A stretch of 20,297 nucleotides of DNA from a virus: positions 1 to 20,297 of the IMG/VR virus record IMGVR_UViG_3300010885_044405; one strand, written 5' to 3'. The position numbers and the translations under genes were made by a program. How positions within the stretch are numbered: position 1 is the stretch's first letter; every line of letters starts with the position of its first letter. This document shows positions 2,616-17,548 of this stretch, piece after piece. The notes under the pieces are model-generated. The model was not told the origin of the DNA, did no database searches, and saw only the letters and a program-made list of their open reading frames with translations.

Positions 2616-2658
2616 ATGTGTTTGTTTTCTTTCTTTTATTTTTCGACCTCAAGCATAT

Positions 2659-2670
2659 CTGCATATGCAG
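2659..2670. repeat. Perfect 12-bp palindrome in the gp23 leader
   Basis: CTGCATATGCAG reads the same on both strands. It lies between the gp22 stop and the gp23 start, downstream of the likely late promoter at 2683-2689, so it would be in the 5' leader of the gp23 mRNA. It could be a protein-binding site or a small RNA structure; no function is shown. Confidence 0.5.
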
Positions 2671-2682
2671 GAACTCAAGTAA

Positions 2683-2689
2683 TATTTAC
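2683..2689 (-). promoter_or_regulatory. GTAAATA late-promoter-like motif upstream of gp23
   Basis: GTAAATA on the minus strand in the 103-nt gap between gp22 and gp23, ending 67 nt before the gp23 ATG. It is flanked by AAGTAA/TTACTT arms. A further GTAAATA (2723-2729) overlaps the gp22 stop. Either could drive extra gp23 transcription with a leader of roughly 60-100 nt. Confidence 0.5.
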
Positions 2690-2718
2690 TTCTACCAAAT
2701 TTTTAGTGAATAAATATA

Positions 2719-3603
2719 TTAATATTTACTCAATTCGTTCAAATAATTTGAAACGGTTGAAAATTCTTTTTCGGGTTGTGGTTGAACTTGTGTATCTTCT
2801 TCCAACACAACACGATCAGCTTTTACTTTACGCTGTTCGAAAGCTTCTTCTTTTAGAGATTGGATACGCTCTTCTTCTTTTTTATCAAAAAGTGAAAGGG
2901 TATAATCAATATTTTCCAAAATGAACTTTGGAGATTTTCCTTCGAAAATACGTTGGGCATATTCCTTCTTCTTTGCAGGAAGTGTGGAAGTTTTTTGTTC
3001 GAGCACCAAAGCTGCTTTTGCTTTTTGTAGGGATTCGCGGAGTTGTTCATTTTCCTGTTGTGCTTCGGTTGCGACTTTACGAGATTCGGTGATTTGCGTC
3101 TTACCATCAATAAGAGCATCTTTTAATGATTCGCTCATGAGAGCGGAATCGATAGCAAGAGATTCGCGAAGATTATTGAGAATAATACGAGCCTTTTGAT
3201 TCTTAACGGCTTCGTTAATTGATTTGGTTGGAATCTTGGATTCAATGAAGAGATCAACGTAATGAGAAATTTTTTCAACTAAATCATCCTTGAATTCAAG
3301 TGCTTGTTCCTTGATGATCTTTTGGTAACGCTCAACAACCATCTGAAGTTTTGCGTGATTGTTTTGATCAAGAGCTTCAACAACACGTTGAAGTTTTGCA
3401 CTATGATCATTATCAATAGCTTCTAGGAGTTGTTCGGCTTTTGCAGTATATTCTGCATCTTGTTCGGTGAGAGCCTTTTCAACATGTAAACGAACTCGAT
3501 CATTTACTGCTGCATTAAATGCTTCTTGAATTTGTCCGAGAGTTTCTTCGGTGAGGATTCCTTGGGTTGCTTCTTTTAGAAGAGATGAAATTTCCGTTGC
3601 CAT
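2719..3603 (-). CDS. 22: Prohead core scaffolding protein, T4 gp22-like
   Basis: The internal scaffold around which the capsid assembles, later degraded by the gp21 protease. The protein is 294 aa (T4 gp22 is 269), almost wholly alpha-helical and charged, with long heptad-like stretches (about residues 40-110 and 175-245). Several sites match (L/I/V)xE|(A/S), for example SLLKE|A near the N-terminus, LLE|A, VVE|A and LRE|S, as expected of a scaffold that is digested. Identification rests on these features and above all on position between gp67-like/gp21 and gp23; coiled-coil scaffolds diverge fast, so sequence alone would be weak evidence. The start is the ATG at 3603; upstream is A-rich with no Shine-Dalgarno and no close TAAATA element, so it is probably read through from the gp67/gp21 transcripts. 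Confidence 0.88.
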   Translation of the reverse strand: MATEISSLLKEATQGILTEETLGQIQEAFNAAVNDRVRLHVEKALTEQDAEYTAKAEQLLEAIDNDHSAKLQRVVEALDQNNHAKLQMVVERYQKIIKEQALEFKDDLVEKISHYVDLFIESKIPTKSINEAVKNQKARIILNNLRESLAIDSALMSESLKDALIDGKTQITESRKVATEAQQENEQLRESLQKAKAALVLEQKTSTLPAKKKEYAQRIFEGKSPKFILENIDYTLSLFDKKEEERIQSLKEEAFEQRKVKADRVVLEEDTQVQPQPEKEFSTVSNYLNELSKY

Positions 3604-3630
3604 AATATTAGTTATTCTTTTTGTTAAAAT

Positions 3631-3879
3631 TTATTTCGAGTTACTCTTAGTTTTTTTATTCTTGTCTTCAGCTTTTGGAAATTTCCCTCCAAATGCGCTC
3701 TTTTTAGCTGCTTTCTTTTCTTCTGGAGTTCCTCCAAAAACTTTCTTTTTAGCGGCTTTTTTAATTTTGGCTTTAACCTTTTCTTGAATTACAACTTCCA
3801 AAAATTTATGAGCACCACTGTAATTTTCAGCGATCATGGCATCGATAAACTTCACGATATTTTCTTTTTCGAGATTCAT
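3631..3879 (-). CDS. 67: Small prohead core protein, T4 gp67-like
   Basis: An 82-aa protein between gp21 and gp22 (T4 gp67 is 80 aa). The first 40 residues contain a helix of the form IDAMIAENYSGAHKFL followed by VIQEKVKAKI, which resembles the N-terminal helical part of gp67-type core proteins. The rest is low complexity with two near repeats, AAKKKVFGG and AAKKSAFGG, and a Lys-rich end. T4 gp67 has a strongly acidic C-terminus, so the basic tail here is a marked difference and suggests it may bind DNA or other core proteins differently. An AATAAATA sits 5 nt before the ATG. The role (head core, shape control) is inferred from synteny and the N-terminal similarity. Confidence 0.7.
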   Translation of the reverse strand: MNLEKENIVKFIDAMIAENYSGAHKFLEVVIQEKVKAKIKKAAKKKVFGGTPEEKKAAKKSAFGGKFPKAEDKNKKTKSNSK

Positions 3880-3884
3880 ATTTT

Positions 3885-3892
3885 TATTTATT
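3885..3892 (-). promoter_or_regulatory. AATAAATA late-promoter-like motif, 5 nt before gp67 start
   Basis: AATAAATA on the minus strand, then AAAAT, then the ATG of the gp67-like gene. It differs from the T4 late consensus TATAAATA by one base. Confidence 0.6.
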
Positions 3893-3893
3893 A

Positions 3894-4559
3894 TTATTTG
3901 ATGTTATTTAAGAAGTTGATGATGCATTCCTTTAGATATTGCTCTACTTCTTTGTTTGGTAACTTTTTGATACCTTTTTCGAAGCTGTCATATACTTCTT
4001 CAAATTGTCCTGATTCACCAAGTACCCATTGTTTTGATTCTAAAATTCCATTTACGAAAGCTTTTGGAAAAGATGGATCAGCCACACAATCCACAGAAAT
4101 AAGACGGAAATTCCTCACAACATTTTTACCATCGGTGGATTCTTCAAGCTGTCCAAGTGCTCGTGAACTCATGCCTACACGTACTCCATCTTGTACTAAT
4201 GAACGAACAATATGTCCGCATGGTGTGGTTAATACTTTGCTTGTACCATAAAAAACATTTCCTTCTTGAAACATATCGGTCACAAGATGGCAGGCTTTAT
4301 CAAGACTAACTTCTGCGCTGCTTTCGTGATTTAAGGTTCCCATTGCTCGTCCAGTTACAACCATTTCTTTTTTATAACGAGCAACTTCGTCAATCATTTC
4401 ATCCAAACGATACAAACGATTGTTACGATTATAATTTTCGGCCATCATATATGGCCCTTTAATGAAAAGAGTCGCAGGGCTTTTGCGATCCTTTTCTTCG
4501 AAAATATATTCGAATTGTTCTTCTGGAGCAGGCTTTTCAACAATTAACCTTAGTGACAT
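3894..4559 (-). CDS. 21: Prohead maturation serine protease, T4 gp21-like
   Basis: Processes the scaffold and the capsid propeptide during head maturation. The protein is 221 aa (T4 gp21 is 212). Motifs fit the herpesvirus-assemblin-like phage proteases: catalytic His78 in GTLNHE and the Ser in GVRVGMSSRALG (S131 or S132), followed by SVDCVADPSF. Near the C-terminus ILE174|S and LGE182|S match the protease's own specificity, suggesting self-processing of the last 40-50 residues, as T4 gp21 does. It is the first gene of the prohead cassette and is transcribed divergently from the plus-strand gene at 4635. The ATG at 4559 is preceded by CTAAATA at a 5-nt gap, which supports this start. Confidence 0.93.
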   Translation of the reverse strand: MSLRLIVEKPAPEEQFEYIFEEKDRKSPATLFIKGPYMMAENYNRNNRLYRLDEMIDEVARYKKEMVVTGRAMGTLNHESSAEVSLDKACHLVTDMFQEGNVFYGTSKVLTTPCGHIVRSLVQDGVRVGMSSRALGQLEESTDGKNVVRNFRLISVDCVADPSFPKAFVNGILESKQWVLGESGQFEEVYDSFEKGIKKLPNKEVEQYLKECIINFLNNIK

Positions 4560-4564
4560 AAAAC

Positions 4565-4571
4565 TATTTAG
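4565..4571 (-). promoter_or_regulatory. CTAAATA late-promoter-like motif, 5 nt before gp21 start
   Basis: Minus strand CTAAATA, then GTTTT, then ATG. It forms a divergent pair with the plus-strand CTAAATA at 4623-4629; both genes have the same 5-nt spacer in opposite directions, strong internal support that the element is real. Confidence 0.75.
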
Positions 4572-4622
4572 ACTTATGATTTAATATTTTTAGAGTAAAA
4601 CACTTGAAATACACAAAAAAAC

Positions 4623-4629
4623 CTAAATA
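4623..4629 (+). promoter_or_regulatory. CTAAATA late-promoter-like motif, 5 nt before the plus-strand gene
   Basis: Plus strand CTAAATA, then ATCTT, then ATG at 4635. It is the only copy placed before a plus-strand gene and shows that this inverted gene is in the same late regulon as the head genes. Confidence 0.75.
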
Positions 4630-4634
4630 ATCTT

Positions 4635-5741
4635 ATGGCAGAAGATATTAATCTAATTTTTGAAAAGTATTTAGAGGTAGTAGAGGAGGCAGGTAAAGGA
4701 CATAGACCACAAAGTTATGGTGATGTTATGTTGGGTAAACAACATAAACAAAAAGGTGCTTTGGCTTTTGGATTAGGCCAAAAAGAAGCAGATAATTTTT
4801 ATAGTGGTAATACTGGATTAACCCCAGAAATCACAAAACAATATAGATCTGACAAAACCTACGAACAAATTGTAGGAGAAGAATTAAATGATCCTTCAAA
4901 ACATATTTCTGTTACTGGATCTGAAGGAATTGTTTCTCCAAAAGCACAAAAAACTTTCTTGGCTATGCGAGACCGCAAAGAATTGGATCGTTATCTGAAT
5001 ATTAGCAACACAGATGATATCTTAATTCCTCATTTCTCATTAGCTCAAACTATCAATAACTTCTCATTACATGCTAGGAATTCAGATGATGAGAATGTTA
5101 AAAAGGCTATTGCTGAATTTTTATCAAAAACTTTAAAGTTTCTTCAGAAAGAATCAAATTATCGTAAGATGTATGCGAATGCTAATGTGTTTTTTGACAA
5201 TAAAAAGTTCGTAGCAGATTCCAAGGAAAACATAACAGATCCAGCAGATACTTATTCTGAACATATTGGTGATATCACAGAAGCATTAAAAGGGTTACAA
5301 CAAAAACCAGTACAATTCATTGATCCTAAATTAGAACCATCCTTCTATAAATTTAGAAAAAAGACACGTTTTGGAACTAAAGACGTATCTTTTGCTATAG
5401 ATCCTACCAAAGGAGAACGTCAGGCATTTGCTCCAGCATCCGAACCACATCCAAATATTGGTGGTGTGATGCCAACTCAAAAAACTGGAAGATCTGCCAC
5501 AGAAGAAGAAAGCAAAACAACACAATTAAAAAATCTAAGTGCTCAGATGTTTAAATTGATGAAAAATAAAGCTCCACAATCTGAAATTGATGCTGTTAAA
5601 GAAAAAATGAGAGAATTAAATCGTGCATCTTTACAAGCTGCTCCTTCTGTTGGAACTGCTGCATCAGCTAAAAAATTATCAAGAAAAGGAAAAATTAAAA
5701 AAGAATCTTATGAACCGTTCGTAAGAAATATTCTTTTTTAA
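4635..5741 (+). CDS. Unknown late protein; candidate virion-internal protein
   Basis: A 368-aa protein, the only plus-strand gene in the window. I do not recognise its family. It is hydrophilic and Lys-rich with no signal peptide or membrane segment. The N-terminus is a short amphipathic helix (INLIFEKYLEVVEE, residues 5-18) followed by AGKG. This looks like the capsid-targeting leader of T4 internal proteins, a short helix ending in a gp21-type site (xxE|A). A second possible site, ITE|A, lies near residue 217. The middle (about 130-200) is predicted helical; residues 265-300 are Pro/Thr/Ser-rich and likely disordered; 300-330 may be coiled coil. It has its own CTAAATA late element, sits between gp4 and gp21, and converges on gp4 with overlapping stop codons. 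A packaged internal or minor head protein is my inference only. Confidence 0.85.
   Translation: MAEDINLIFEKYLEVVEEAGKGHRPQSYGDVMLGKQHKQKGALAFGLGQKEADNFYSGNTGLTPEITKQYRSDKTYEQIVGEELNDPSKHISVTGSEGIVSPKAQKTFLAMRDRKELDRYLNISNTDDILIPHFSLAQTINNFSLHARNSDDENVKKAIAEFLSKTLKFLQKESNYRKMYANANVFFDNKKFVADSKENITDPADTYSEHIGDITEALKGLQQKPVQFIDPKLEPSFYKFRKKTRFGTKDVSFAIDPTKGERQAFAPASEPHPNIGGVMPTQKTGRSATEEESKTTQLKNLSAQMFKLMKNKAPQSEIDAVKEKMRELNRASLQAAPSVGTAASAKKLSRKGKIKKESYEPFVRNILF
5697..5739. terminator. Bidirectional hairpin terminator inside the end of the plus-strand gene
   Basis: Outer 10-bp stem AAAAAAGAAT / ATTCTTTTTT (5697-5706 with 5730-5739) encloses an inner 8-bp stem CTTATGAA / TTCGTAAG (one G-T wobble, loop CCG); four unpaired bases (AAAT) lie on the right side. 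It ends in a T-run in either direction, so it can stop both converging transcripts. It lies wholly within the last codons of the plus-strand gene and abuts the gp4 stop. Confidence 0.65.
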
Positions 5742-6190
5742 GGCAAATCTTTCTCGGTTATTACAATAAATTCAGCTCCTTTGGCAGTAGCAAACTTCTT
5801 AGCTGCTTCCCATTTAGCTTGGTTTATAACCCATTGTGTCGTTTCATAAAGAACGGTAGTTTTCTTTTTACGATTCGAAGGAGCAGGAGGAAGTGTTTGT
5901 TTATATGGTTTAATCTCAATTAGATATTTTTTTATCTTATCGCCTTCTCTTAATACCACATAAGTATCCACATAATATCTGTGTAGTCTTTGATCTATTG
6001 GAGATTTATAAGGAACAATAATTTGTTCTGAACTCCATTGTAGTACATTTGGATTACCATCAGCCCAAAGAAAAAACTTACGTTCAAGCGAAGAACGAAA
6101 TATAGCAAATTTTCCAATAAATTTTTCGGGATTCTTTGGTTGGAATACCCCCTGTTTGAATCTTGGATCTTTTTTAAATATCGGAGGCAT
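5738..6190 (-). CDS. 4: Head completion nuclease, T4 gp4-like
   Basis: Acts after DNA packaging to finish heads before tail joining. The protein is 150 aa, the same length as T4 gp4. The core fits a TnsA-like PD-(D/E)xK nuclease: FRSSLERKFFLW (Glu), then NPNVLQWSSEQIIVPY, HRYYVDTYVV (Asp), and LIEIKPYKQT (E-x-K). The C-terminal KWEAAKKFATAKGAEFIVITE segment is the usual last helix and strand. The phrases RSS-x-ERK, SE-x-IVPY and IEIKP are those I associate with T4 gp4. Its TAA stop overlaps the TAA of the converging plus-strand gene (shared TTAA). TTAAATA lies 5 nt before the ATG, so it is in the late set. Confidence 0.88.
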   Translation of the reverse strand: MPPIFKKDPRFKQGVFQPKNPEKFIGKFAIFRSSLERKFFLWADGNPNVLQWSSEQIIVPYKSPIDQRLHRYYVDTYVVLREGDKIKKYLIEIKPYKQTLPPAPSNRKKKTTVLYETTQWVINQAKWEAAKKFATAKGAEFIVITEKDLP

Positions 6191-6194
6191 TTAA

Positions 6195-6857
6195 TTATTT
6201 AATTGCATATAGCAAAGAATAATTATTATCAGTAGTAGAATCCAAGAACATTGTGGGAAACTTATCACCTAAATATCGTTTTAATATTTTCTCGTATAAT
6301 TGTATTCGTTTTGATTCATTTTTATCTATTCTCATGGAGATAGCTCCAGTATTAGCTATCATTCCTCTAGATAATAAACTATCTTTTAATACATCCACGA
6401 CTGTTTGAAAAACTTCTAGTGCTCCTAATCCTTCACTATTTGTTAAATTAGATTCTCCTGTGTCTGTGATAAAATTTATCATACAAATCTTTTCGTTTGT
6501 TTTTAATAAATCATTTTTTAGTTTATTATAATTCGAGGCTAGAATATTATCTTTCTTGAAATTTGAACTAGTTTCAGAAGAATTTGCTATTTCGTAAGAT
6601 GTATTCTCGTCGTAATAACTAATCAAAACTCGATACGAAGAACCTGATTTGGTTGTTATTGAATAATTGTGATGCGTGGCATTATTTTTTAACGTATCGT
6701 TTAATCGTTCAAATGATTCTAATATAGAAAATTGCTGGGATAATTCATACAATCGAAACATTTCGCTCCAATCATAATTTTCTAAAATTACATCAGAATC
6801 AAATAAATCAAATCTTTTACACTGTTTTAAAATTACACTTTCGTAAATTTCTTGCAT
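6195..6857 (-). CDS. Conserved-looking phage protein of unknown function
   Basis: A 220-aa protein with no function I can name. The N-terminal 60 residues are helical and acidic/aromatic; the middle (about 65-90) reads as beta strands (YSITTKSGSSYRVLISYY); the C-terminal part (about 120-220) has MINFIT, then GLGALEVFQTVVDVLKD, then ISMRIDKNESKRIQLYEKILKRYLG and YSLLYAI. The last pattern, a strand, then an S/N-ESKRIQLYEKILKR-type helix and a final strand, resembles phage proteins sometimes described as acetyltransferase-like, but I see no acetyl-CoA-binding motif. It lies between the candidate spanin and gp4, with TGAAATA 5 nt before the ATG, so it is probably expressed late and may be structural or act in assembly. 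Confidence 0.85.
   Translation of the reverse strand: MQEIYESVILKQCKRFDLFDSDVILENYDWSEMFRLYELSQQFSILESFERLNDTLKNNATHHNYSITTKSGSSYRVLISYYDENTSYEIANSSETSSNFKKDNILASNYNKLKNDLLKTNEKICMINFITDTGESNLTNSEGLGALEVFQTVVDVLKDSLLSRGMIANTGAISMRIDKNESKRIQLYEKILKRYLGDKFPTMFLDSTTDNNYSLLYAIK
6196..6202 (-). promoter_or_regulatory. TTAAATA late-promoter-like motif, 5 nt before gp4 start
   Basis: Minus strand TTAAATA, spacer ATTAA, then ATG at 6190. The element overlaps the stop codon of the upstream gene. Confidence 0.65.
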
Positions 6858-6861
6858 ATAT

Positions 6862-7422
6862 CTATTTCACAAAGAATCCAAATATTCTAGCACCAATACT
6901 TAAAAATCTAGTAGGGAAAAAATAAAACAATGCTCCGAGTGCTGATAATATAGTTCCAAAAATAGCAAACCATTTAATAGTTTTCTTTCTCTCGTAATCT
7001 CTAATAGTTTCGGTTCTGATGTTCTCCGTAATGATATCAGATACAAGATCTTTGTTCTTATCCTCTAGTTCTTCTATGATATTTACTTCTTTTTTATCTT
7101 CTTTGAATTTATCATCTATGGCTTTGGATAATTCTGCCGCAGTTAGATTTTTGTATTCATTACCGTCGTCAATCTTAGATCCTAGTAATGTTTGGCCTTT
7201 TTCCAAGATATCAACAGCATTTTGTAATTCAGGATCAATTTGAGATTTTTTCTTTATTAATTCTTTGGCAACCGCAATAAAGTCCTTAGCATCTTCATTT
7301 AATTTATCTTGTTTTTGATCTATTTGTCTTTGGTATTTTGTATACTCATTTACTTTAGATGTGGCGCAAGATGTGGTAAATCCCACCAAAACGATCAAAA
7401 TAGTTTTAAATAAAGATTTCAT
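6862..7422 (-). CDS. Lipoprotein with C-terminal membrane segment; candidate unimolecular spanin
   Basis: A 186-aa protein from the ATG at 7422. A frame extension to a TTG at 7455 is possible but would overlap the upstream gene and put extra residues before the signal peptide. MKSLFK plus a hydrophobic stretch ends in VGFTTSC, a lipobox-type site giving Cys19. Next comes about 130 residues of charged, probably helical periplasmic sequence, then a hydrophobic segment around residues 150-170 (IKWFAIFGTILSALGALFYFF) and a short basic tail. An outer-membrane lipoprotein signal with a C-terminal transmembrane segment is the defining layout of unimolecular spanins such as phage T1 gp11, which fuse inner and outer membranes at lysis. 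Other choices are an envelope or superinfection-related lipoprotein. No lysin or holin is adjacent. No clear TAAATA element precedes the start. Confidence 0.75.
   Translation of the reverse strand: MKSLFKTILIVLVGFTTSCATSKVNEYTKYQRQIDQKQDKLNEDAKDFIAVAKELIKKKSQIDPELQNAVDILEKGQTLLGSKIDDGNEYKNLTAAELSKAIDDKFKEDKKEVNIIEELEDKNKDLVSDIITENIRTETIRDYERKKTIKWFAIFGTILSALGALFYFFPTRFLSIGARIFGFFVK
6863..6869 (-). promoter_or_regulatory. TGAAATA late-promoter-like motif, 5 nt before the 6857 gene
   Basis: Minus strand TGAAATA (one base off NTAAATA), spacer GATAT, then ATG at 6857. It overlaps the TAG stop of the upstream gene. Confidence 0.5.
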
Positions 7423-7445
7423 AAATCTACGTAAGTTATTGATTA

Positions 7446-8615
7446 TCAACCACAAATCCAGAAAGAGGGCTCGGCGTCCCCAAATCCTGCGGCGTTAGTA
7501 TATAATTGTGTTTCTAACTTTTCTTTTTCAGCCAAACCCTGCTGCATAATATCAGTAGTAAAAGCTTGTCCTCCGAAAATTTGTACTCCGCTAAATTTTC
7601 CTCTTACATGACCAACATTTATTTTTGTGAGTGCCAAAGCATATTGATAAACCCATGGTTCTTTTATTAGATCTCTTATGGGTTTTTCTATATAACAATT
7701 AATTACTCCATAAAAATGCACAGAAGTTGTGGGTTCGGGATAGATCCTCATGTACTGTGTACGATCATCAAATTCATATGATCTCTTTGTAGCCAATACT
7801 TTTTCACGAGTTTCAAGCCAGTTTTTAACTGTGTACCAACTGATTAAATCAAATCCATAATTTCCCATGGCATAACTAAAATAAGTTTGTTGTGCCAAGG
7901 TTTGTTCGATTGTGAATAGTGTATTAATTCCAGTGGTTGCTCCTTCTTCGAAATCAGTAATCGCCATTACTTTACGATAGTCCATGGCATCATAATCAAA
8001 CATGTTATTGTAGATTACGGGAGTTTGTGCATTACATTCCCCATTCATCGTAAGTTCTTTTGTTACTGTATTAACAAAGAATGATGATACTGGTATCATC
8101 GAAAGAATTGGATTCGCTGCAAAAGATGTTACAACTTGATTATATGTAGAATAATCTAGAATCTGATTACGTTCCATTCCATCAATAAATGCTGCGGATA
8201 ATTCTGGAACCACAGAGAAAAATACTTTATTAATACTAGATACTGCAACATACATTGTATCTGGTGGTAAAAGATACGGAGCAGTATCAACAGATTCGGT
8301 TTTGTGTGTAACCTTTTCTCTTAAATTTAAACCATTATTTGCCAGAGTATACAAATGATCCAAACGAATTCCACGTCCACGTTCATATAGAGCAGAATCT
8401 AGAATTAGATATTCTTTGGTATATCCTGCGAATTTTGAGAACATTTCACAGGCAATACCAATATTTTCAAACAATTGATCCTGATGCACCTCCACAGATA
8501 TTAATGGAGCACCCAAAGATCTTACAATCCTGTCACCCAAACGAGCAAAACAATCAATCTTATTATTAAGATTAGTACTCTGAAATGCCGAAACAGGCGT
8601 AATTACACATGACAT
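7446..8615 (-). CDS. Neck/connector-like virion structural protein
   Basis: A 389-aa protein immediately after the portal gene. The N-terminal region (RIVRSLGAPLISVEVHQDQL, then FENIGIACEMFSKF, about residues 25-65) has the look of phage adaptor or neck proteins, where a beta segment leads into helices carrying acidic residues. The C-terminal segment WVYQYALALTKINVGHVRGK, followed by FSGVQIFGGQAF and a helix with EKEKLETQL, resembles a pattern seen in T4-like marine phage structural proteins. I cannot tell whether it corresponds to T4 gp13, gp14 or another connector component. CTAAATA stands 5 nt before the ATG, placing it in the late set. The structural role is inferred from position and late control; confidence in the exact part is low. 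Confidence 0.85.
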   Translation of the reverse strand: MSCVITPVSAFQSTNLNNKIDCFARLGDRIVRSLGAPLISVEVHQDQLFENIGIACEMFSKFAGYTKEYLILDSALYERGRGIRLDHLYTLANNGLNLREKVTHKTESVDTAPYLLPPDTMYVAVSSINKVFFSVVPELSAAFIDGMERNQILDYSTYNQVVTSFAANPILSMIPVSSFFVNTVTKELTMNGECNAQTPVIYNNMFDYDAMDYRKVMAITDFEEGATTGINTLFTIEQTLAQQTYFSYAMGNYGFDLISWYTVKNWLETREKVLATKRSYEFDDRTQYMRIYPEPTTSVHFYGVINCYIEKPIRDLIKEPWVYQYALALTKINVGHVRGKFSGVQIFGGQAFTTDIMQQGLAEKEKLETQLYTNAAGFGDAEPSFWICG

Positions 8616-8620
8616 GTAAT

Positions 8621-8627
8621 TATTTAG
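8621..8627 (-). promoter_or_regulatory. CTAAATA late-promoter-like motif, 5 nt before the neck-like gene
   Basis: Minus strand CTAAATA, spacer ATTAC, then ATG at 8615. It fills the 17-nt gap after the portal stop codon. Confidence 0.75.
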
Positions 8628-8632
8628 TCATA

Positions 8633-10450
8633 TTATGCTGCTGGTGGTGTTTCTGGTGCTCCTCCTGCGGGAGGTGGTGCTCCTGCTTCTCCACTTGCTT
8701 CAGCTCCTCCTTCAGCACCTGAGGGTGCTCCCATATTAACGGGTCCACCTGCTGGAGGTGGTGGTAATCCTCCACCCCCTCCACCTCCACCACCTGATGG
8801 AGGTAGTCCTTCAGCTCCTGCTTCTCCTCCTGCATTAGCTTGTGCTTCTAATGCTTCTTTCCATTTTGGTCCTAAAGTTTCGATCTGTGTTAATTCCCAA
8901 CGAAGTTCTTTATCTTTACGCAAGAATTCACGGTTCGCTTTAATATCAATATCAGACCATCCAAGATATCTCTTCTGAGCAAAAGTTGGAGATACTGATT
9001 CGTTCGCAGCCAGATTTCCGAAATTAGAAACTTTAAGCTCCAACTTCTGGCTTTCACGAAGTTCATAGAAATTAGTTGGAACATTAAATTCAATCTGTAC
9101 GGATTCTTCTTTTAGTTCGAACTCTTTCCACAGATTCTTCATCTGAAGATGAGTTATAAATCCGTTTTTCAAACCAGCACAGAACAGTTGCTGCAACCTG
9201 ATAATAAAACGAGCAAACTTTAATTCTTCACGAAGCATATCAGCTCCGTCACGGAATGCATCTTGAGGATCTAGACGAGTGGTTGGTACTTTGAGAGACT
9301 GATATAACTTCTTAACGAAGTAAAGTAAATCTTCTAAATTTCCAAGATTTTGGGCACCTTCAAGCTGAATTACGCTAGTTCCTTCAGATCCAGCACGTTT
9401 TGCAAACCAAAAATTATCCATAATAGATTGTGGATTGAATTTTTGTGTAATTCCACCTTGGGACGGATCGTATGTTTTGCTAGACCAATATTGTGTTACC
9501 AATTTACGAAGATATGCTTCGGCTTTTGGTGCTGGCATATTACCAACATCAACATTAAAAACCAACCTTTCGGGAGCACGAGCCAAACGATAAATTACAA
9601 TCGAATCTTCGATCATGCTCAACTGACGATAAGCTCTCCTAGCATTTTCCAAAAATGGAAGACGCATTGTTTTGCTTTCATTCCATACATCAGAATGAAC
9701 ATATGTTACTTGGTTTTTATCCAAGGGTACATAATCCACGCCAACTTGTTTCAGCGGATTATTGGGATCGAATTTTGGCTTACGATAAAGATATCCTTTT
9801 ACCAAAACATTCTGTACATTTGAAAAAACTGGATCGACTAGTTCAGTCGGAATCTGAACAATTCCAAGAATACCTTCTTCAGGATAATCTTTATGAATAA
9901 TATGTTCCCAATAAATTTCTCCTTCAACTAACAACTGCCTAAAATAAGACCAGCCTTTGTGTTCGAAATCAAAATGAGAAACGTATTTAAAAAACTCTTT
10001 GTTTAAGGTTTCCGTCTGAAAATCCGACAAAGAAATATTTTTGAATTTAAGATTCAAACAACTATTTGTAGAAGAATCTATATTAATAATTTCATCACAG
10101 ATCTCATCTAATGCATTAGCAACTTCTGAGAAAGCTGCCATGATCCTATAATCTCTTACTCTTGCCAATTTATCCTTCTGGATATTGGCATACATTACTT
10201 CACTGTATCGCTTGTCCGCAGTAATGTTTCCTACACTTTGATTGTTAAATTCAAAGTTTTGAGAAATAGAATGACGTGATAAAACTTCAGCTCTTCTTGT
10301 TCCAGTTTCTTCGAAATACTTGTACTTTGGATTTAAATTATCGGTTAATTTTGATACATCAAATCCCGAGTAAGGTAGCTTTGATGTGATGTAATTCATC
10401 AAATCTCTACCAAACGTGGAACTTTTCCCATCATCAAAATTATTTGCCAT
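8633..10450 (-). CDS. 20: Portal vertex protein, T4 gp20-like
   Basis: The dodecameric portal through which DNA is packaged and to which the neck binds. The protein is 605 aa (T4 gp20 is 524). The central part closely follows gp20: APERLVFNVDVGNMPAPKAE, then KLVTQYWSSK, DNFWFAKRAGSEGTSV, LEGAQNLGNLEDLLYFVKKLY, LKVPTTRLD and LREELKFARFIIRLQQLF. The excess length is largely a C-terminal tail of about 68 residues made of Gly, Ala, Pro, Glu and Ser, including nine Gly in a row and Pro runs, which T4 gp20 lacks. The tail is probably disordered and may sit inside the capsid or contact the terminase or core. GTAAATA lies 6 nt before the ATG at 10450. Confidence 0.95.
   Translation of the reverse strand: MANNFDDGKSSTFGRDLMNYITSKLPYSGFDVSKLTDNLNPKYKYFEETGTRRAEVLSRHSISQNFEFNNQSVGNITADKRYSEVMYANIQKDKLARVRDYRIMAAFSEVANALDEICDEIINIDSSTNSCLNLKFKNISLSDFQTETLNKEFFKYVSHFDFEHKGWSYFRQLLVEGEIYWEHIIHKDYPEEGILGIVQIPTELVDPVFSNVQNVLVKGYLYRKPKFDPNNPLKQVGVDYVPLDKNQVTYVHSDVWNESKTMRLPFLENARRAYRQLSMIEDSIVIYRLARAPERLVFNVDVGNMPAPKAEAYLRKLVTQYWSSKTYDPSQGGITQKFNPQSIMDNFWFAKRAGSEGTSVIQLEGAQNLGNLEDLLYFVKKLYQSLKVPTTRLDPQDAFRDGADMLREELKFARFIIRLQQLFCAGLKNGFITHLQMKNLWKEFELKEESVQIEFNVPTNFYELRESQKLELKVSNFGNLAANESVSPTFAQKRYLGWSDIDIKANREFLRKDKELRWELTQIETLGPKWKEALEAQANAGGEAGAEGLPPSGGGGGGGGGLPPPPAGGPVNMGAPSGAEGGAEASGEAGAPPPAGGAPETPPAA
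8636..8839 (-). repeat. Low-complexity Gly/Pro/Ala-rich coding repeat in the portal tail
   Basis: GGN and CCN triplet runs encode the last 68 or so residues of the portal, including a run of nine Gly and the string LPPPPAGGP. It is locally far richer in G+C than the surrounding DNA and looks like a product of triplet expansion; slippage could vary its length between relatives. Confidence 0.85.
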
Positions 10451-10456
10451 ACTGTG

Positions 10457-10463
10457 TATTTAC
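10457..10463 (-). promoter_or_regulatory. GTAAATA late-promoter-like motif, 6 nt before portal start
   Basis: Minus strand GTAAATA, spacer CACAGT, then ATG at 10450. It lies in the gap between the gp15-like stop and the portal start. Confidence 0.6.
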
Positions 10464-10469
10464 TATAAA

Positions 10470-11621
10470 TTAGCTAGAAAGATATGTCAATGTCGTATTA
10501 ATTGAATTTGTATCCATCCAACCAATTTCATTAACCACAATGAAATTGATATCTCCATTTCCAGTAAGCGGAGGCAAATTCACATGGATTACATTCTCTC
10601 CGAATACTTGCAAATAATTATTTGGGATATCAAAAGCTGTTATCGAAGGATAATAAGTAAAATCAAACGAAGAAATATTATTATAAATTGTGGGAGAATT
10701 ACTACTCAGCATAACATGATGAGTATATTGGAAGTTTTCACCAGCAATTACAAATGTCGTTGGATAAAGATAATTTGATTTTACTATATTATATCCAGAT
10801 AATTCTCTCAGCCCAACAGGAGTATTCAAATATAAATTTGTTAGTAATGGAGTTCCTGAAACTGATACAGTTTCATTTTCATCTGGTAATCCTTGTCTTG
10901 GATCATACACATATTCATCCGCAGAAAGAGCTGGATAAGAATCGTAACTAAGGATGTTTTCTGTGGTGGTATGAAAATTGGCATCAATGAAATAGATATT
11001 TTTAGCTAGATCTGCTGGTGCTGCTGGGAATAGCCAGCCTTTAATCACGAAAGAAGTCGTAGCAACAAATCTTGGCTTATCAGTTGCCGTGACTTCCACA
11101 GGATATTCTAAATTAATATTTCCATCCCAAAGTACTTCAGAACGAATTTCATTGATGATTTCTATACCAAAATCATCAGGTAATCTCCAAGAAATGATAA
11201 TATAAGGATTAGAATAAGGAACGAAATTTGACAGAATCTGATCCATGTCACTTTGATAATTCGTTAAAATATTAACAGCAACCGTCAGGTTCACAGGAAC
11301 TGGCATGGGAACCCTAGCCGAAAATTTAGCATTAACCTCTCTTCTTACTGGCGAGTAAAAACCATCAATTTTATTAAAAACACGATTTTCGTCACGATTT
11401 ATTGAAGTGATATTCACCGCAATAACAGGAACTGTGATGTTCTGTGCCTTGTTTACAATGTCCATAAGAACCCTTTCTTTGGGAGCATGGACATAACGAA
11501 CCTTAATCTGTTCTTTTTCTTCTCTTAGTTTGTTGTATCTAGAAATAACAACATCATCCATCGCAGCTATGAACTGCGTAATAAGATCTTTAATTTCAAA
11601 ATGGAATCCTTTATTAAACAC
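10470..11621 (-). CDS. 15: Tail sheath stabiliser, T4 gp15-like, with C-terminal extension
   Basis: Caps the contractile tail at its head-proximal end and helps join tail to neck. The protein is 383 aa (T4 gp15 is 272). Residues 1-240 follow gp15: an N-terminal amphipathic helix, IKVRYVHAPKERVLMDI, then PVPVNLTVAVNILTNYQSD, MDQILSNFVPYSNPYI, and TTSFVIKGWLFP, matching the gp15 pattern of an ILTNYQSDMDQI-like helix and an F-x-VxGWxxP strand. The last 125 residues are extra: YPTTFVIAGENF and a run of beta strands ending in DINFIVVNEIGWMD, reminiscent of an IPT/TIG or Ig-like fold. The start is GTG at 11621, supported by CTAAATA at a 5-nt gap; an ATG start nearby would lose the first helix. It lies next to the portal, as neck genes often do. 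Confidence 0.82.
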   Translation of the reverse strand: MFNKGFHFEIKDLITQFIAAMDDVVISRYNKLREEKEQIKVRYVHAPKERVLMDIVNKAQNITVPVIAVNITSINRDENRVFNKIDGFYSPVRREVNAKFSARVPMPVPVNLTVAVNILTNYQSDMDQILSNFVPYSNPYIIISWRLPDDFGIEIINEIRSEVLWDGNINLEYPVEVTATDKPRFVATTSFVIKGWLFPAAPADLAKNIYFIDANFHTTTENILSYDSYPALSADEYVYDPRQGLPDENETVSVSGTPLLTNLYLNTPVGLRELSGYNIVKSNYLYPTTFVIAGENFQYTHHVMLSSNSPTIYNNISSFDFTYYPSITAFDIPNNYLQVFGENVIHVNLPPLTGNGDINFIVVNEIGWMDTNSINTTLTYLSS

Positions 11622-11626
11622 AGAAG

Positions 11627-11633
11627 TATTTAG
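11627..11633 (-). promoter_or_regulatory. CTAAATA late-promoter-like motif, 5 nt before the gp15 GTG start
   Basis: Minus strand CTAAATA, spacer CTTCT, then GTG at 11621. The fixed spacing is the main evidence for choosing this non-ATG start. Confidence 0.75.
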
Positions 11634-11639
11634 GCTAAA

Positions 11640-13265
11640 TTATACAAAACGAGAAAGGAAATAGCGAGGTAGTTTCCTAGCATTCCGTAAAACGGCATCC
11701 GAAATTGTTCCATCTAGAATATATGTGACACATTTGTCGTTTTTCGTTCTAACTCCACGACCACATGCTTGAATAAGATGATTTAACATCTTATTTTGAT
11801 ACCAATCTTTGTTCTCAGTGAACAATCTTTTGATACGTTCATCATTCAGTGGCATGTATGCCGCCTTCACAATGATCTGAAAACGAGCCAAATCTTCTTT
11901 CAAGTCTACACCATAAGTCATGGAAGGACTCACCAGAATAGTAGGATCAGGAGATTCAGTATGCTGACGAATAATTTGTTCGTTATTAGCACCGTCTAAT
12001 CTGAAAAGAAATCTTGGATCATGTATATTATCTTTGAGATATTGTGTGATCTCCATGGTATGTGTATGGATCACACCTTTTACATTTTTATGAAGAGTGC
12101 AGATTTTATTAATAGATTCTGCCAATTGTGGAAGCTTTTCCTTTAGATTTTTATAATTAATCTTGTTCTTGGTTGTGACATAGATCGGAGCATTTTTGGG
12201 ATCAAATGTAGAATCCACTTCGATATATTTGAATTTATCAATTCCCAATGTCTTGGCAAAGTTATCTGGATCGATAATTGTTGCGGACATTAATAGAATT
12301 TTACCACCATGATCAAAGATATGTTTTGCTAGTTTATCCACCCTTAATGGTTTTAATGTGATTCCTTCAAGGGAATTCTCCACGACATATTCACATTCTT
12401 CCCATGTTTCCATGGTTGTTCGCATTTGCATCAACAAATTATTAAACAATTTGTAACGCTGAACATCCATTTCATTAAAGGAATTCTTCTTCTTACGGTT
12501 TAGTGTTTTCTTCAGTTCCTCAACTTCATCTCCAAGTTTCATTACAAGTGTATCTAGCCACACCCGAAACTTTCCATAATTTGTGATTGGAATATCAGTT
12601 GGCTTGAATCCCACCCTACGTAGAATTTTATAATTTAAATTTCGGCTGAACCTTTTAACAAGCTCGTCCTCGATTTCAGAGGCTTCATCACAAATAATAT
12701 ATTCTCGCCTTTTAACATGGTCTGGAAGCGAAAGAAACATGCTATAGTTTAACACTCCAAACTTATTCGTCAGAACAGATTTTCTGGAATTATAATATTC
12801 ACAAACAGAATTAAGAATACAAGATTCTTTGATTCTTGGATTAAACAAACAAGGTGCCACTTCCACATCGCAACTTGTATCTACTTTGCAAATATAACTA
12901 CTTTTTCCTTTCAACGAACTAGAATCATCAAACAGATTTGTATACTGATCCTGAAGACTTTTTGTGATCGTTAAGGCAAACACACCGAAGTCACGTTCTT
13001 CTTTGCATTCTTCTTCTTTTAAATAATCTCCGAATTCATCAATTCTGAAAGCATTATTAGTTTCAATTAGCTTTACGAATTCTTCGGTGGGTTCTTTGGA
13101 AATGTTTGCTAGAGTTTTAGACAAAAAAGATTTACCGCTTCCAGTAGGGGCGCAGGCAATAACGAACTTGTGTCCGTTATGAAATGCATCATCAATCTGA
13201 TTCAGCAACTCAATCTGTTGCGGAAGAGGTTGAAATTTTGTGGGAAAATAGTCAAGAAGTGCCAT
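11640..13265 (-). CDS. Superfamily 2 DNA helicase, XPD/DinG type with Fe-S cysteines
   Basis: An ATP-dependent 5'-3' type DNA helicase by family. The 541-aa protein has all core motifs: a Q-motif-like PLPQQIELL; motif I APTGSGKS (residues 39-46); motif II DEAS in place of DEAH (193-196); motif III LLMSATI; a motif V-like TYGVDL; and motif VI QACGRGVR. Between motifs I and II are Cys126, 132, 139, 149 and 155, the place where XPD/Rad3/DinG helicases bind a 4Fe-4S cluster, so an Fe-S cluster is likely. The role would be in replication, recombination or repair; it is not one of the classical T4 helicases (gp41, Dda, UvsW). It sits between structural genes but has no TAAATA element at its start (TATATTG at that position), consistent with early or middle expression through read-through from upstream. 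Confidence 0.9.
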   Translation of the reverse strand: MALLDYFPTKFQPLPQQIELLNQIDDAFHNGHKFVIACAPTGSGKSFLSKTLANISKEPTEEFVKLIETNNAFRIDEFGDYLKEEECKEERDFGVFALTITKSLQDQYTNLFDDSSSLKGKSSYICKVDTSCDVEVAPCLFNPRIKESCILNSVCEYYNSRKSVLTNKFGVLNYSMFLSLPDHVKRREYIICDEASEIEDELVKRFSRNLNYKILRRVGFKPTDIPITNYGKFRVWLDTLVMKLGDEVEELKKTLNRKKKNSFNEMDVQRYKLFNNLLMQMRTTMETWEECEYVVENSLEGITLKPLRVDKLAKHIFDHGGKILLMSATIIDPDNFAKTLGIDKFKYIEVDSTFDPKNAPIYVTTKNKINYKNLKEKLPQLAESINKICTLHKNVKGVIHTHTMEITQYLKDNIHDPRFLFRLDGANNEQIIRQHTESPDPTILVSPSMTYGVDLKEDLARFQIIVKAAYMPLNDERIKRLFTENKDWYQNKMLNHLIQACGRGVRTKNDKCVTYILDGTISDAVLRNARKLPRYFLSRFV

Positions 13266-13280
13266 TTACCCAATATAGGG

Positions 13281-13634
13281 CTACAATACAGACAGATCAA
13301 GCGAATTCTTTTCGAAGATCGTCAACTTGCTGTCAAAGAAACGAGAATTGTTTTTCTTGTTTAATGAAACCAAACGGTAATACAATTCCGCATCACTTTT
13401 AGAAATCGCCTCTAAAGTATAATCCAAAACCAAATAATTCTTCACACGTTTAATATCGTATGGATAAGGAATTTCATATTTCTTCTGCACATTATTACTC
13501 TTTAAATGAAAATTTAAATAAAAATCTTTCTGACTGAAAAGAATTAATTTCCCGTCTTTGATAATTTTGTTGTCGATTGCAAATACAATATCTCTTTGCA
13601 TGAAATACTTAAAATTATCTTCTACGTTGTGCAT
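13281..13634 (-). CDS. Small phage protein of unknown function
   Basis: A 117-aa protein I cannot assign. It is basic and aromatic-rich with alternating short strands (RDIVFAIDNKIIKDGKLILF, then KDFYLNFHL and KKYEIPYPYDI) and a helix near residues 70-88, suggesting a compact beta-rich fold. No membrane segment or catalytic motif is visible. It lies between the SH3-like gene and the helicase, 15 nt before the helicase start. TTAAATA lies 6 nt before its ATG, suggesting late transcription or a shared element. Confidence 0.75.
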   Translation of the reverse strand: MHNVEDNFKYFMQRDIVFAIDNKIIKDGKLILFSQKDFYLNFHLKSNNVQKKYEIPYPYDIKRVKNYLVLDYTLEAISKSDAELYYRLVSLNKKNNSRFFDSKLTIFEKNSLDLSVL

Positions 13635-13640
13635 TAAACC

Positions 13641-13647
13641 TATTTAA
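13641..13647 (-). promoter_or_regulatory. TTAAATA late-promoter-like motif, 6 nt before the 13634 gene
   Basis: Minus strand TTAAATA, spacer GGTTTA, then ATG at 13634. It lies in the 30-nt gap after the SH3-like gene. Confidence 0.55.
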
Positions 13648-13664
13648 AAGGTTTATATGAAACA

Positions 13665-14174
13665 TCAAGAGTCCATCCAGTATGCCAGTTCTGATAAGGG
13701 CATTTTAATCATTTCATTATACACAAATTCCCAAAAGAATTGATCATTCATTACTGTGATATCTTGTGTAGCCTTTCTTTTTACAAACGGAGATATGATA
13801 TCATCGTTCTTTTTTATCTTTCTAATACTTTTATTAACTGGATATTCTCCCACAAGTAGGCATTCATCCATATTAATACACCTATAATCTTGCATCACAA
13901 TATCCCAAGTAATAATTAGATTTTTTGCTCGGGGATCGAAATGTAAAGGAATATCACTATGCTTTGGTTTTCTATAAGCAAGATTAACTACTCCCAGAGT
14001 AGAATTTAATAATTCTGGACAATTCGAACATAACATCCTTCTAGAAGTTACTGTGGGACGTATATGCCCCCGAACAGGACGATGTCTGCGAACTATAAAT
14101 AATTCACAGACACCTTTTCTGAGCTTTGCTTGTAGGCTGGAATATCCTACATAATTACCTATGGAACCAATCAC
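13665..14174 (-). CDS. SH3-barrel-like small phage protein
   Basis: A 169-aa protein. The central segment TSRRMLCSNCPELLNSTLG, then LAYRKP and KNLIITWDIVMQDYRCINMDE, resembles a small protein common in T4-like marine phages that is often annotated as an SH3 beta-barrel fold; I recall this pattern but could not check it. The C-terminal part ends in FFWEFVYNEMIKM and YWMDS. Cys48 and Cys51 and further Cys residues could bind metal but the pattern is incomplete. Function is unknown. The start is GTG at 14174, chosen because TTAAATA lies exactly 5 nt upstream. It follows the GroES-like gene by 8 nt, so the two are likely co-transcribed. Confidence 0.75.
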   Translation of the reverse strand: MIGSIGNYVGYSSLQAKLRKGVCELFIVRRHRPVRGHIRPTVTSRRMLCSNCPELLNSTLGVVNLAYRKPKHSDIPLHFDPRAKNLIITWDIVMQDYRCINMDECLLVGEYPVNKSIRKIKKNDDIISPFVKRKATQDITVMNDQFFWEFVYNEMIKMPLSELAYWMDS

Positions 14175-14179
14175 ATAAC

Positions 14180-14186
14180 TATTTAA
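14180..14186 (-). promoter_or_regulatory. TTAAATA late-promoter-like motif, 5 nt before the 14174 GTG start
   Basis: Minus strand TTAAATA, spacer GTTAT, then GTG. It overlaps the TAA stop of the GroES-like gene. Confidence 0.65.
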
Positions 14187-14596
14187 TCATTCTTCTTAGC
14201 AATTCCGAACATCCTCTGTTCATTTAAGAACATTCCCTTCTTAACCTTGCCATATCCATCAACATCAAGGTTAGATACAGTGGCTCCCTTATCATTGGGG
14301 AAAATCACAATATCACCAACATTACAATAAGCTACATTTGGTCCCTTGAGAACCACCTTGGCCTTACGCCATGCCTTGGTATTAACATTTGTTGGAACAT
14401 ATAGTCCGTTACGAATTACCGCAGAGCCTTGAGCATCTTCAACCTCATCAACGAATTCAACCAAAACAATATCATCGAAAACAAATGATAGCTTATAATC
14501 ATCCAAGCCAAAAAATCCTTCGGAATTTGAACTGAGATCAATCATTCCTTTTTTTGTCTTGAAATTATCCATATTATCTGGAAGTTTTTGTGTCAT
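14183..14596 (-). CDS. GroES/gp31-like co-chaperonin
   Basis: Probably the lid for host GroEL, needed to fold the major capsid protein, as T4 gp31 does. The protein is 137 aa (gp31 is 111, GroES about 97). After an unusual N-terminal extension of about 35 residues comes the GroES-type barrel: DDIVLVEFVDEVEDAQGSAV (strand leading into the mobile loop), RNGLYVPTN, a KAKVVLKGPN strand, and CNVGDIVIFPNDKGATV, the usual 'VGDxVxFp' turn, with RMFGIAK closing the barrel. The mobile loop would be around residues 52-66. A TTAATTA element, one base off the late motif, lies 5 nt before the ATG. Orthology to gp31 rather than to cellular GroES cannot be settled here. Confidence 0.78.
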   Translation of the reverse strand: MTQKLPDNMDNFKTKKGMIDLSSNSEGFFGLDDYKLSFVFDDIVLVEFVDEVEDAQGSAVIRNGLYVPTNVNTKAWRKAKVVLKGPNVAYCNVGDIVIFPNDKGATVSNLDVDGYGKVKKGMFLNEQRMFGIAKKND

Positions 14597-14632
14597 ATGA
14601 TTAATTAAGAATATTTTTCAAAAAATCAATCT

Positions 14633-15468: not shown

Positions 15469-16329
15469 TTATTTGTTATAGTTTTTAACAGCTTCAGTTA
15501 AAGCTTCTTCAACGGGTCGCATCCCCAAACCAAAGCTTTCCAGTTTATCCGTATTAAGAATACAATTAGACCTAGCAGCAATTGAAGTCTTCATAAAATC
15601 TTGAATATCTGCGAAATATTCCTTGCTGCTAATTACTTCATTGAATTCTGGACGATATTTAGAAAATAATTCAAACAAACTCTTGGCATCTGTGTATCCC
15701 TTATTGGTGAGATTATAAATTCCCGATGGGATATTATGCTCTAGTGTCTTCAAGCAAGTAGAGACAAATTCTTCTTTTTGTGAAACAGAATTTACAAGAT
15801 TCAAAATCTTTTTATAATTCAACATCTTCGTAAGATAATTACGAGGACTATTTTCTATATTGAAAGGAATCCTAAGACGCCAAATGTATGTGTTGGGGAA
15901 ATCTCTCAAAAGTTCTTCTGACTGAGCTTTGGTTCCAGAATAAAAACTAGAATTGTTTTGCTTGAACGAAAAGTCTGGTTCGTCAGTTTCGGTATAATGC
16001 TTTTCGTACCCATTGTAAATACATCCAGAAGACACATGGCCGAAAGGAATCTTTAATTGTTCACAAGCTTGTGCAATCCACAAAGGAAAAATCACATTAC
16101 CAAAATAACACTTATCTTTTTGTGCTTCACAAGCATCTACGTTTGGTTTTCCCGTAAAGCCAGCAGCATTGATGACATAATTTACTTCTTGTCCACGAAG
16201 AAATTCCAAAACATTCTTATACCCATAAAACCACTTGTGAGATGGATTTGAAATGATCTTATCACCAAGTTGATTACGAAATTCCGAACCAATATACCCA
16301 CTACCACCGAACAAAATTACTTTTTCCAT
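15469..16329 (-). CDS. dTDP-4-keto-rhamnose reductase-like SDR (NRS/ER-like)
   Basis: An extended short-chain dehydrogenase of 286 aa, probably making a dTDP- or UDP-deoxyhexose. Seen: NAD(P)-binding FGGSGYIG (residues 7-14), NAAGFTGKPNVDACE (about 54-68), SSGCIYNGYEKHYTETDEP and catalytic Y130-S-G-T-K134. The NAAG-x-TG-x-PNVD-x-C-E, SPRNYLTKMLNYKKI and ARSNCILNTDKL phrases are those of the bifunctional 3,5-epimerase/4-keto-reductase (NRS/ER) known from plants and of related bacterial or viral enzymes, closer to these than to classical RmlD. It is 9 nt after rfbA, so both steps are likely made together. The partner 4,6-dehydratase (RmlB) is not in the window. The substrate is inferred. Confidence 0.85.
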   Translation of the reverse strand: MEKVILFGGSGYIGSEFRNQLGDKIISNPSHKWFYGYKNVLEFLRGQEVNYVINAAGFTGKPNVDACEAQKDKCYFGNVIFPLWIAQACEQLKIPFGHVSSGCIYNGYEKHYTETDEPDFSFKQNNSSFYSGTKAQSEELLRDFPNTYIWRLRIPFNIENSPRNYLTKMLNYKKILNLVNSVSQKEEFVSTCLKTLEHNIPSGIYNLTNKGYTDAKSLFELFSKYRPEFNEVISSKEYFADIQDFMKTSIAARSNCILNTDKLESFGLGMRPVEEALTEAVKNYNK

Positions 16330-16338
16330 TACTCTAAT

Positions 16339-17190
16339 TTAAGAGTATTTTGTAAATAAATCAAGCAAATAATTCTTATATTCTGAGTTCGGAAGATTCA
16401 TAATTAATGATTCAAATTCAGTATCATTTACGAATTTGTTTCTGTATGAGATCTCTTCCAAACATGCAATTTTAATTCCTTGTCTGGTTTGAATGGTTTC
16501 AACATATGATGCAGCCTGATGTAATGTAGAAGGCAAACCTGCATCCAGCCAAACAAATCCACGATTTAATTTAGAAACATATAAATTACCAGAATTCAAA
16601 TATTCTTTGTTTACGTCAGTGATTTCTAGTTCACCTCGGTTGGAGGGTTTTAAATTTTTTGAAATTTCAACTACGCTGTTATCATATAGATATAAACCGG
16701 GAATGGCATACCTGCTGATAAATTCCTTTGGCTTTTCTACTAAAAGTGTTGCTTTACCACTTTCATCAAACTTAACAACTCCGTAATCTTGAGGATTACT
16801 TACTTCATAAGCAAATACCTTTGCTCCTGTGCTGAATGTGTAATCAATTTCTCCGTGGAAAATGTTATCACCCAATACCAACATTACAGAATCAGATCCA
16901 ATAAAATCTGCTGCAATAACGAATGCTTGTGCAATTCCTTCGGGTTTGGGTTGCTCTAGATAAATTATATTCATTCCCAAGTGTTTTCCATCACGGAAAA
17001 GTTTCTTATAAGCAGGAAGATATTCGGGAGACGAAATAATACAAACTTCTCGAATACCAGCATTCATCAATGTAGCCATGGGATAATAAACCATGGGTAC
17101 ATCATAAACAGGCAATAATTGTTTATTAACAACCTGTGTTAATGGGAATAAACGAGAACCAGTACCACCTGCAAGAATTATACCTTTCAT
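16339..17190 (-). CDS. rfbA: Glucose-1-phosphate thymidylyltransferase (RmlA/RfbA)
   Basis: Joins dTTP and glucose-1-phosphate to give dTDP-glucose, the first step towards dTDP-rhamnose and other deoxysugars. The 283-aa protein has the family signatures: LAGGTGSRLFPLT (residues 6-18), KQLLPVYD, IISSPEYLP, PEGIAQAF, LGDNIF (Asp108), VEKPKE, GLYLYD and WLDAG. Usual length is 286-300 aa; compared with enterobacterial RmlA about ten residues are missing just after LGDNIFHG, a surface region, so activity should be kept. The ATG overlaps the gp62 stop (ATGA), implying translational coupling. It is followed at 9 nt by the reductase-like SDR. Confidence 0.93.
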   Translation of the reverse strand: MKGIILAGGTGSRLFPLTQVVNKQLLPVYDVPMVYYPMATLMNAGIREVCIISSPEYLPAYKKLFRDGKHLGMNIIYLEQPKPEGIAQAFVIAADFIGSDSVMLVLGDNIFHGEIDYTFSTGAKVFAYEVSNPQDYGVVKFDESGKATLLVEKPKEFISRYAIPGLYLYDNSVVEISKNLKPSNRGELEITDVNKEYLNSGNLYVSKLNRGFVWLDAGLPSTLHQAASYVETIQTRQGIKIACLEEISYRNKFVNDTEFESLIMNLPNSEYKNYLLDLFTKYS

Positions 17191-17546: not shown

Positions 17547-17548
17547 TA

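Follow-up and report, generated by a model that had tools for sequence, protein, structure and literature searches.

Introduction

Late transcription in bacteriophage T4 is a textbook system, and its late mRNAs carry leaders. The late promoters of T4 and of the T4-like phage Aeh1 contain the core TAAATA from −11 to −6, are read with a gp55-family sigma factor and have no −35 consensus (PMC2988020, PMC1524935); the T4 promoter TATAAATA spans −13 to −6, and the Aeh1 promoter CTAAATA starts at −12 (PMC1524935). Here we analyze the same hexamer, hereafter the box, in a stretch of 20,297 bases (the window) from IMG/VR record IMGVR_UViG_3300010885_044405, a fragment of an uncultured T4-like phage with 34% GC (66% AT). 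In the window and its relatives the box stands at a fixed distance of 5 nucleotides (nt) before start codons, and it is very probably a T4-type late promoter that drives predicted leaderless late mRNAs, which would make it a variant of the T4 system.

The clade of the window shares with T4 and Aeh1 the TAAATA core, the late-gene specificity, the gp55-family sigma factor, the AT-rich downstream segment and the lack of a −35 element. Whereas the boxes of T4 and Aeh1 lie mostly 20–30 nt from the start codon, the box of the clade is only 5 nt away, which is predicted to leave no leader. In Deinococcus, a −10 motif next to open reading frames (ORFs) has been shown by experiment to give leaderless mRNA (PMC12340547). 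The short fixed distance between a −10 box and the ORF is common to both; however, the Deinococcus motif is the TANNNT promoter of the bacterium's own genes, in contrast to a phage late box. The late promoters of phiKZ consist of TATG, with the last G at +1 (PMC4666361), and are similarly very short phage elements at the transcription start, but they are read by a phage multisubunit RNA polymerase and not by the host polymerase with a T4-type sigma factor. No earlier report of leaderless late mRNAs in T4-like phages was found in a literature search, whose coverage excluded most subscription journals.

Position of the box relative to start codons

Profile matches in the window identify gp23, gp21, gp4, a gp13-type neck protein, the portal protein gp20, gp15, a DNA helicase, gp62 and a nucleotide-sugar cassette. 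The portal protein shares only about 30–33% identity with any isolate among the matches listed. IMG/VR contains 37 loci related to the window, one of which lies within a 236-kilobase (kb) contig (G001) and one within an 87-kb contig (G002). The boxes of the window are as follows.

2723–2728, minus strand: TAAATA box upstream of gp23, predicted +1 near 2717; the leadered exception
3609–3614, minus strand: variant TAACTA, one mismatch, 5 nt before the ATG of the gene at the gp22 position (2719–3603)
3885–3890, minus strand: TAAATA box, 5 nt before the ATG of a small gp67-like gene (3631–3879)
4565–4570, minus strand: TAAATA box, 5 nt before the ATG of gp21 (3894–4559; Peptidase_S77)
4624–4629, plus strand: TAAATA box, 5 nt before the ATG of gene 4635–5741, divergent from gp21
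6196–6201, minus strand: TAAATA box, 5 nt before the ATG of the gp4 head-closure gene (5738–6190)
6863–6868, minus strand: variant GAAATA, one mismatch and weak, 5 nt before the ATG of gene 6195–6857
8621–8626, minus strand: TAAATA box, 5 nt before the ATG of the gp13-like neck gene (7446–8615; phrog_211, head-tail adaptor)
10457–10462, minus strand: TAAATA box, 6 nt before the ATG of portal gp20 (8633–10450)
11627–11632, minus strand: TAAATA box, 5 nt before the GTG of gp15 (10470–11621)
13641–13646, minus strand: TAAATA box, 6 nt before the ATG of gene 13281–13634
14180–14185, minus strand: TAAATA box, 5 nt before the GTG (at 14174) of gene 13665–14174
14602–14607, minus strand: variant TAATTA, 5 nt before the ATG of gene 14183–14596

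An earlier note on this DNA had described most of these sites, and its positions hold for the exact boxes before gp21, the plus-strand gene, gp4, the neck gene, gp15 and the gp67-like gene, for the 6-nt spacers of the portal gene and gene 13281–13634, and for the GAAATA core, a single mismatch away from TAAATA. The site at 14180–14185 is present, but it belongs to gene 13665–14174 and not to gene 14183–14596, which has only TAATTA at that distance; the TAA within this box doubles as the stop codon of gene 14183–14596. The note had said that two of its sites decide GTG starts; the GTG starts with a box at 5 nt are those of gp15 and of gene 13665–14174.

The genome-scale scan for a box at fixed distance that the note had proposed was run on the relatives and gives a clear excess at 5 nt over the controls. 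TAAATA-N5-ATG occurs 72 times in G001, compared with 5 occurrences of the reversed pattern. The histogram of box-to-ATG distances peaks at 5 with shoulders at 6–7, both in the contigs G001 (72 versus a median of 7), G002 (34 versus 3) and G003 (15 versus 3) and in the 37 related loci taken together (171 versus about 20). Among all pairs of 6-mer and distance, TAAATA at distance 5 ranks first in both large contigs (z = 22.0 in G001 and 15.3 in G002). The fixed geometry between box and start codon is thus real and general in the clade of the window.

Conservation and gene class

The box is retained in orthologous genes. It is present before the gp67-like gene in 14/14 orthologues, at exactly 5 nt before gp21 in 20/20, and before the plus-strand gene 4635–5741 in 6/6 despite a protein identity of about 27%. 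At distance 5, all 17 orthologues of gp22 carry TAACTA or another form that differs from the box by no more than one base. The gp13-like neck gene has the box in 21 of 27 orthologues, and gp20 has it at distance 5 in 19 of 30 and at 6–8 in eight more. Gene 13281–13634 shows distance 6 in 11 and distance 5 in six of 23 orthologues. Conservation is looser for gp4 (exact in 6/20, at most one mismatch in 13/20) and for gene 14183–14596 (at most one mismatch in 11/19). The plus-strand gene, which encodes a fast-evolving protein, is the lone gene of its strand inside the head operon.

Two genes of the window serve as a contrast.

11640–13265, minus strand: DNA helicase gene (phrog_2488), no box
17187–17546, minus strand: gp62 clamp-loader gene (phrog_225), no box

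In agreement with the earlier note, which had listed both genes as lacking the motif, none of 25 helicase orthologues and none of 18 gp62 orthologues is preceded by a box. Among the homologues identified in G001, 7/9 late genes and 0/11 early or replication genes have the exact box (Fisher p = 0.0005). The boxed late genes are gp21, gp4, gp13, gp20, gp18, gp25 and the first part of gp17, whereas uvsW, gp55, gp46, gp47, gp43, uvsX, gp32, gp61, gp44 and nrdA have no box. The note had named an equal frequency of the box before early genes as grounds for abandoning its proposal; neither G001 nor the orthologue sets show this. Unboxed genes instead have sigma70-like promoters upstream (15 found, 1.2 expected). 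The clade also contains three divergent pairs of late genes separated by only 24 nt, with the boxes placed back to back.

Predicted promoter coordinates and the late sigma factor

In the published coordinates the last A of the box is −6, so that the base following a 5-nt spacer would be +1, which here is the first base of the start codon, A in ATG or G in GTG. The TATAAATA sites of T4 itself show a pyrimidine at the fourth to fifth following base and a purine at the sixth in 79% of cases; this sixth base is the position that is taken by the A of ATG here, while the start codons of T4 are mostly far downstream. In the boxed sites of the clade, a pyrimidine precedes the start codon in 80% of cases (p ~ 1e-8). 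When the spacer is 7 nt, the distance between box and pyrimidine is unchanged (86%); the step is not clearly seen at 6-nt spacers. A peak at distance 5 from the box is seen for GTG starts as well but is missing for TTG starts, as it should be if the first base of the start codon has to be the purine on which transcription initiates. Upstream of −19, 114 aligned sites show only AT-richness with no informative columns, and a −35 element is lacking. Shine-Dalgarno sites are absent before the boxed genes of the clade.

Homologues of gp55 (phrog_234) are present in the relatives G001, G002 and G008 (E values from 1e-16 to 3e-29), and a profile search also detects gp55 in G002 (60424–60894; E 5.5e-24). 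The gene order uvsW-gp55-gp47-gp46 in relatives is the order known from P-SSM2. The gp55 gene of G001 (L044:3528–5030, corresponding to G001 103528–105030) is split by an apparent intein of about 325 amino acids that begins at Cys and ends with GN before Ser (Pfam Intein_splicing, 7e-6).

These data suggest a mechanism in which TAAATA is a −10-type box read by the host RNA polymerase carrying the phage gp55-family sigma factor. With the last A of the box at −6 and a spacer of 5 nt, transcription would begin at the first base of the start codon (A or G) and yield a leaderless mRNA; spacers of 6–8 nt would give leaders of 1–3 nt. Translation would then begin on a 5′-terminal AUG or GUG without a Shine-Dalgarno sequence, which presumes that the ribosome accepts such RNA. 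In this way each boxed gene would have a promoter of its own, fused to the start codon.

Several observations weigh against this reading. Not every late gene fits: many are without a box, and co-transcription is presumed for them. Nothing is found 5 nt before gp23, whose conserved box lies about 107 nt upstream and can be recognized in the majority of 16 orthologues. The full octamer TATAAATA is not matched, since −13 is A in 48% and G in 30%, and −12 is A in 36% and C in 33%; T at −13 and A at −12 are, however, not a defining requirement family-wide, because other T4-like phages, such as Aeh1 with CTAAATA, deviate too. Unboxed genes of the clade likewise lack Shine-Dalgarno sites, so this lack alone cannot separate the two classes in the clade, although it separates them in the cultured Pelagibacter phage HTVC008M described below. 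The gp55 genes were located in relatives, outside the 20-kb fragment. Of the two late factors that the earlier note had suggested looking for, gp55 was thus found, but gp33, a short and poorly conserved protein, gave no match by PHROGs or profile in the relatives. The search for gp45 with phrog_223 was negative, and a three-sequence profile yielded only weak candidates at G001 118591–119334 (E 8e-4) and G002 73193–73936 (E 2e-4), which are orthologous with 55% identity and whose AlphaFold model is unusable (predicted local distance difference test score, pLDDT, 38). Finally, the start codons of the relatives are those called in this analysis.

Comparison with HTVC008M and distribution of the fixed distance

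Phage HTVC008M (NC_020484; Kyanoviridae) resembles the clade of the window in having the exact 5-nt box without a Shine-Dalgarno sequence in 12 annotated genes: 12 of its 14 TAAATA-N5-ATG sites fall on start codons annotated by the depositors. The boxed genes include gp4, gp48, gp25, gp2 and gp29, with no Shine-Dalgarno in the gap. The box-to-start distance is bimodal, either 4–8 nt, which leaves no room for a Shine-Dalgarno sequence, or at least 18 nt, in which case a Shine-Dalgarno is present (9/9). Leaderless mRNAs are predicted for the AUG codons at 16007, 18916, 18943, 19456, 31132, 49760 and 75830, and leaders for the starts at 36520, 51699 and 69453. The start codons of the divergent genes gp2 and gp4 are 26 nt apart, and the gap is filled by two back-to-back boxes. 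Only part of the late genes of HTVC008M has the 5-nt form, the others being leadered with a Shine-Dalgarno, whereas the 5-nt form dominates in the clade. Leaderless-type and leadered late genes thus occur in one cultured genome, which makes the idea directly testable.

The strength of the distance-5 peak follows the identity of gp20 to that of the window: it is strong at 60% or above, weak at 54–57% and absent at 44–51%. Distant loci without the peak have boxes 20–32 nt upstream of starts. T4 shows no clear peak (8 sites at distance 5, median 4), and none is found in Aeh1, KVP40, S-PM2 or P-SSM2. The peak reappears in HTVC008M and, more weakly, in Mosig, which suggests that the 5-nt spacing may have more than one origin.

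Alternative explanations

Three other explanations were weighed against a late promoter with +1 on the start codon. In the first, which we consider improbable, the box is a late promoter, but RNA synthesis begins a few bases off the start codon, so that leaders are very short (1–8 nt) and not missing. A sizeable minority of sites does have spacers of 6–8 nt, among them the portal gene and gene 13281–13634 of the window (6 nt each), and the gp15 genes of relatives are mostly predicted to have leaders of 0–8 nt. Against this, the peak lies exactly at 5 nt and the pyrimidine/purine step falls on the predicted +1.

The second explanation, that TAAATA-N5 is a Kozak-like or A-rich, Bacteroidetes-like translation-initiation signal and not a promoter, is less probable still. 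It would account for the fixed distance to the start codon and for the absence of Shine-Dalgarno sites from both gene classes, and the unboxed genes do favour A at −3/−4. However, the boxed genes show no A at −3, and the box is confined to late genes, agrees with the published consensus of late promoters and with their distance to +1 (PMC1524935), and also occurs 18–31 nt upstream of HTVC008M genes that have their own Shine-Dalgarno and within the gp15 hairpins described below. Bacteroidetes-type initiation was rejected as a candidate, since sigma70-like promoters are found in place of TANNTTTG promoters and A at −3 is missing from boxed genes. The gp55-type late promoter with +1 at the start codon, as proposed in the earlier note, is supported by the T4 coordinates, the pyrimidine/purine step, the late/early split, the gp55 homologues and the HTVC008M dichotomy; a pure translation signal, which the note had allowed for, predicts none of the five.

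The third, that AT-rich spacers and the TAA stops of preceding genes make TAAATA common, has next to no likelihood: the genome is AT-rich and an upstream TAA stop coincides with the box in 19/126 cases, but only in those, 46 of the 126 boxes lie behind a gene on the opposite strand, the distance counts in relatives show no comparable peak for other AT-rich hexamers or the reversed pattern, and T4 has none at similar GC content, so the controls refute the artefact.

If the late-promoter reading is right, the locking of box to start codon links the transcriptional switch of the late genes with another way of initiating translation. For annotation of these uncultured phages it supplies a rule, in which the position of the box decides start codons and temporal class. 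A stronger version, in which the whole clade made late expression leaderless and the late sigma switch doubles as a translation switch, we regard as unlikely; were it true, ribosomes or initiation factors might be modified by the phage late in infection, favouring mRNAs with a 5′-terminal AUG over leadered host and early messages.

Hairpins at gp15 and the predicted leader of gp23

Two structures adjoin boxes of the window.

13635–13655, minus strand: inverted repeat TAAACC...GGTTTA around the box, a stem of 7 base pairs whose 3′ arm abuts the ATG of gene 13281–13634; weak alone
2616–2717, minus strand: predicted structured 5′ leader of the gp23 mRNA (gene 1113–2615), with a covarying consensus structure

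In T4, the genes e, soc, 49 and I-TevI have a late promoter inside a translation-blocking hairpin (PMC3014915, PMC2988022). A similar arrangement is present at gp15 of many relatives (L006, L015, L021, L025, L026, L034), where the box is enclosed by an inverted repeat and the 3′ arm of the repeat extends up to the ATG. The stems vary in sequence while the pairing is kept, and each of the first eight positions shows three to six types of pair. Of the 18 sequences that have both a scored stem and a box, 17 have the predicted +1 in the 3′ arm; a few of these stems are short. These compensatory changes suggest that the repeats are likely a translation gate for read-through RNA. In transcripts that enter from the gene upstream of gp15 (the helicase gene in the window), the start codon would be hidden; RNA begun at the late promoter, which would lie inside the hairpin as in T4, would be missing the 5′ arm. 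The T4 hairpins mask the Shine-Dalgarno and/or the AUG, whereas the gp15 genes of relatives have no Shine-Dalgarno and the start codon itself would be masked. The gp15 gene of the window has no such stem. As a general feature, hairpin gating was rejected, since boxed genes behind non-late genes show no surplus of start-abutting stems over shuffled sequence (mean 4.62 and 4.62; G001–G003 and the window); gating is confined to the gp15 genes of relatives, with gene 13281–13634 as a possible further case.

The predicted gp23 leader is about 100 nt long, and 6 of the 22 pairs in its consensus structure show two-sided changes. GGTAGAAGTA, TACTTGA and CTTGAGGTCG are invariant, and alignment A4 (window 2616–2728) shows a conserved block of GAGTTCCTG, a hairpin and CTTGAGGTCGAA. 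The leader matches no Rfam family.

Other observations

An Rfam scan of the window gave zero matches above threshold, and no tRNAs, sought as a clue to the host, were found. Genes for a nucleotide-sugar epimerase, a sugar nucleotidyltransferase and a methyltransferase (15469–18178, minus strand) adjoin gp62 and are mostly missing from the relatives fetched. In G001 (130867–135128), the terminase gene gp17 is in two pieces around another ORF, possibly an insertion element, and its best tblastn matches include intein-bearing terminases of Campylobacter phages.

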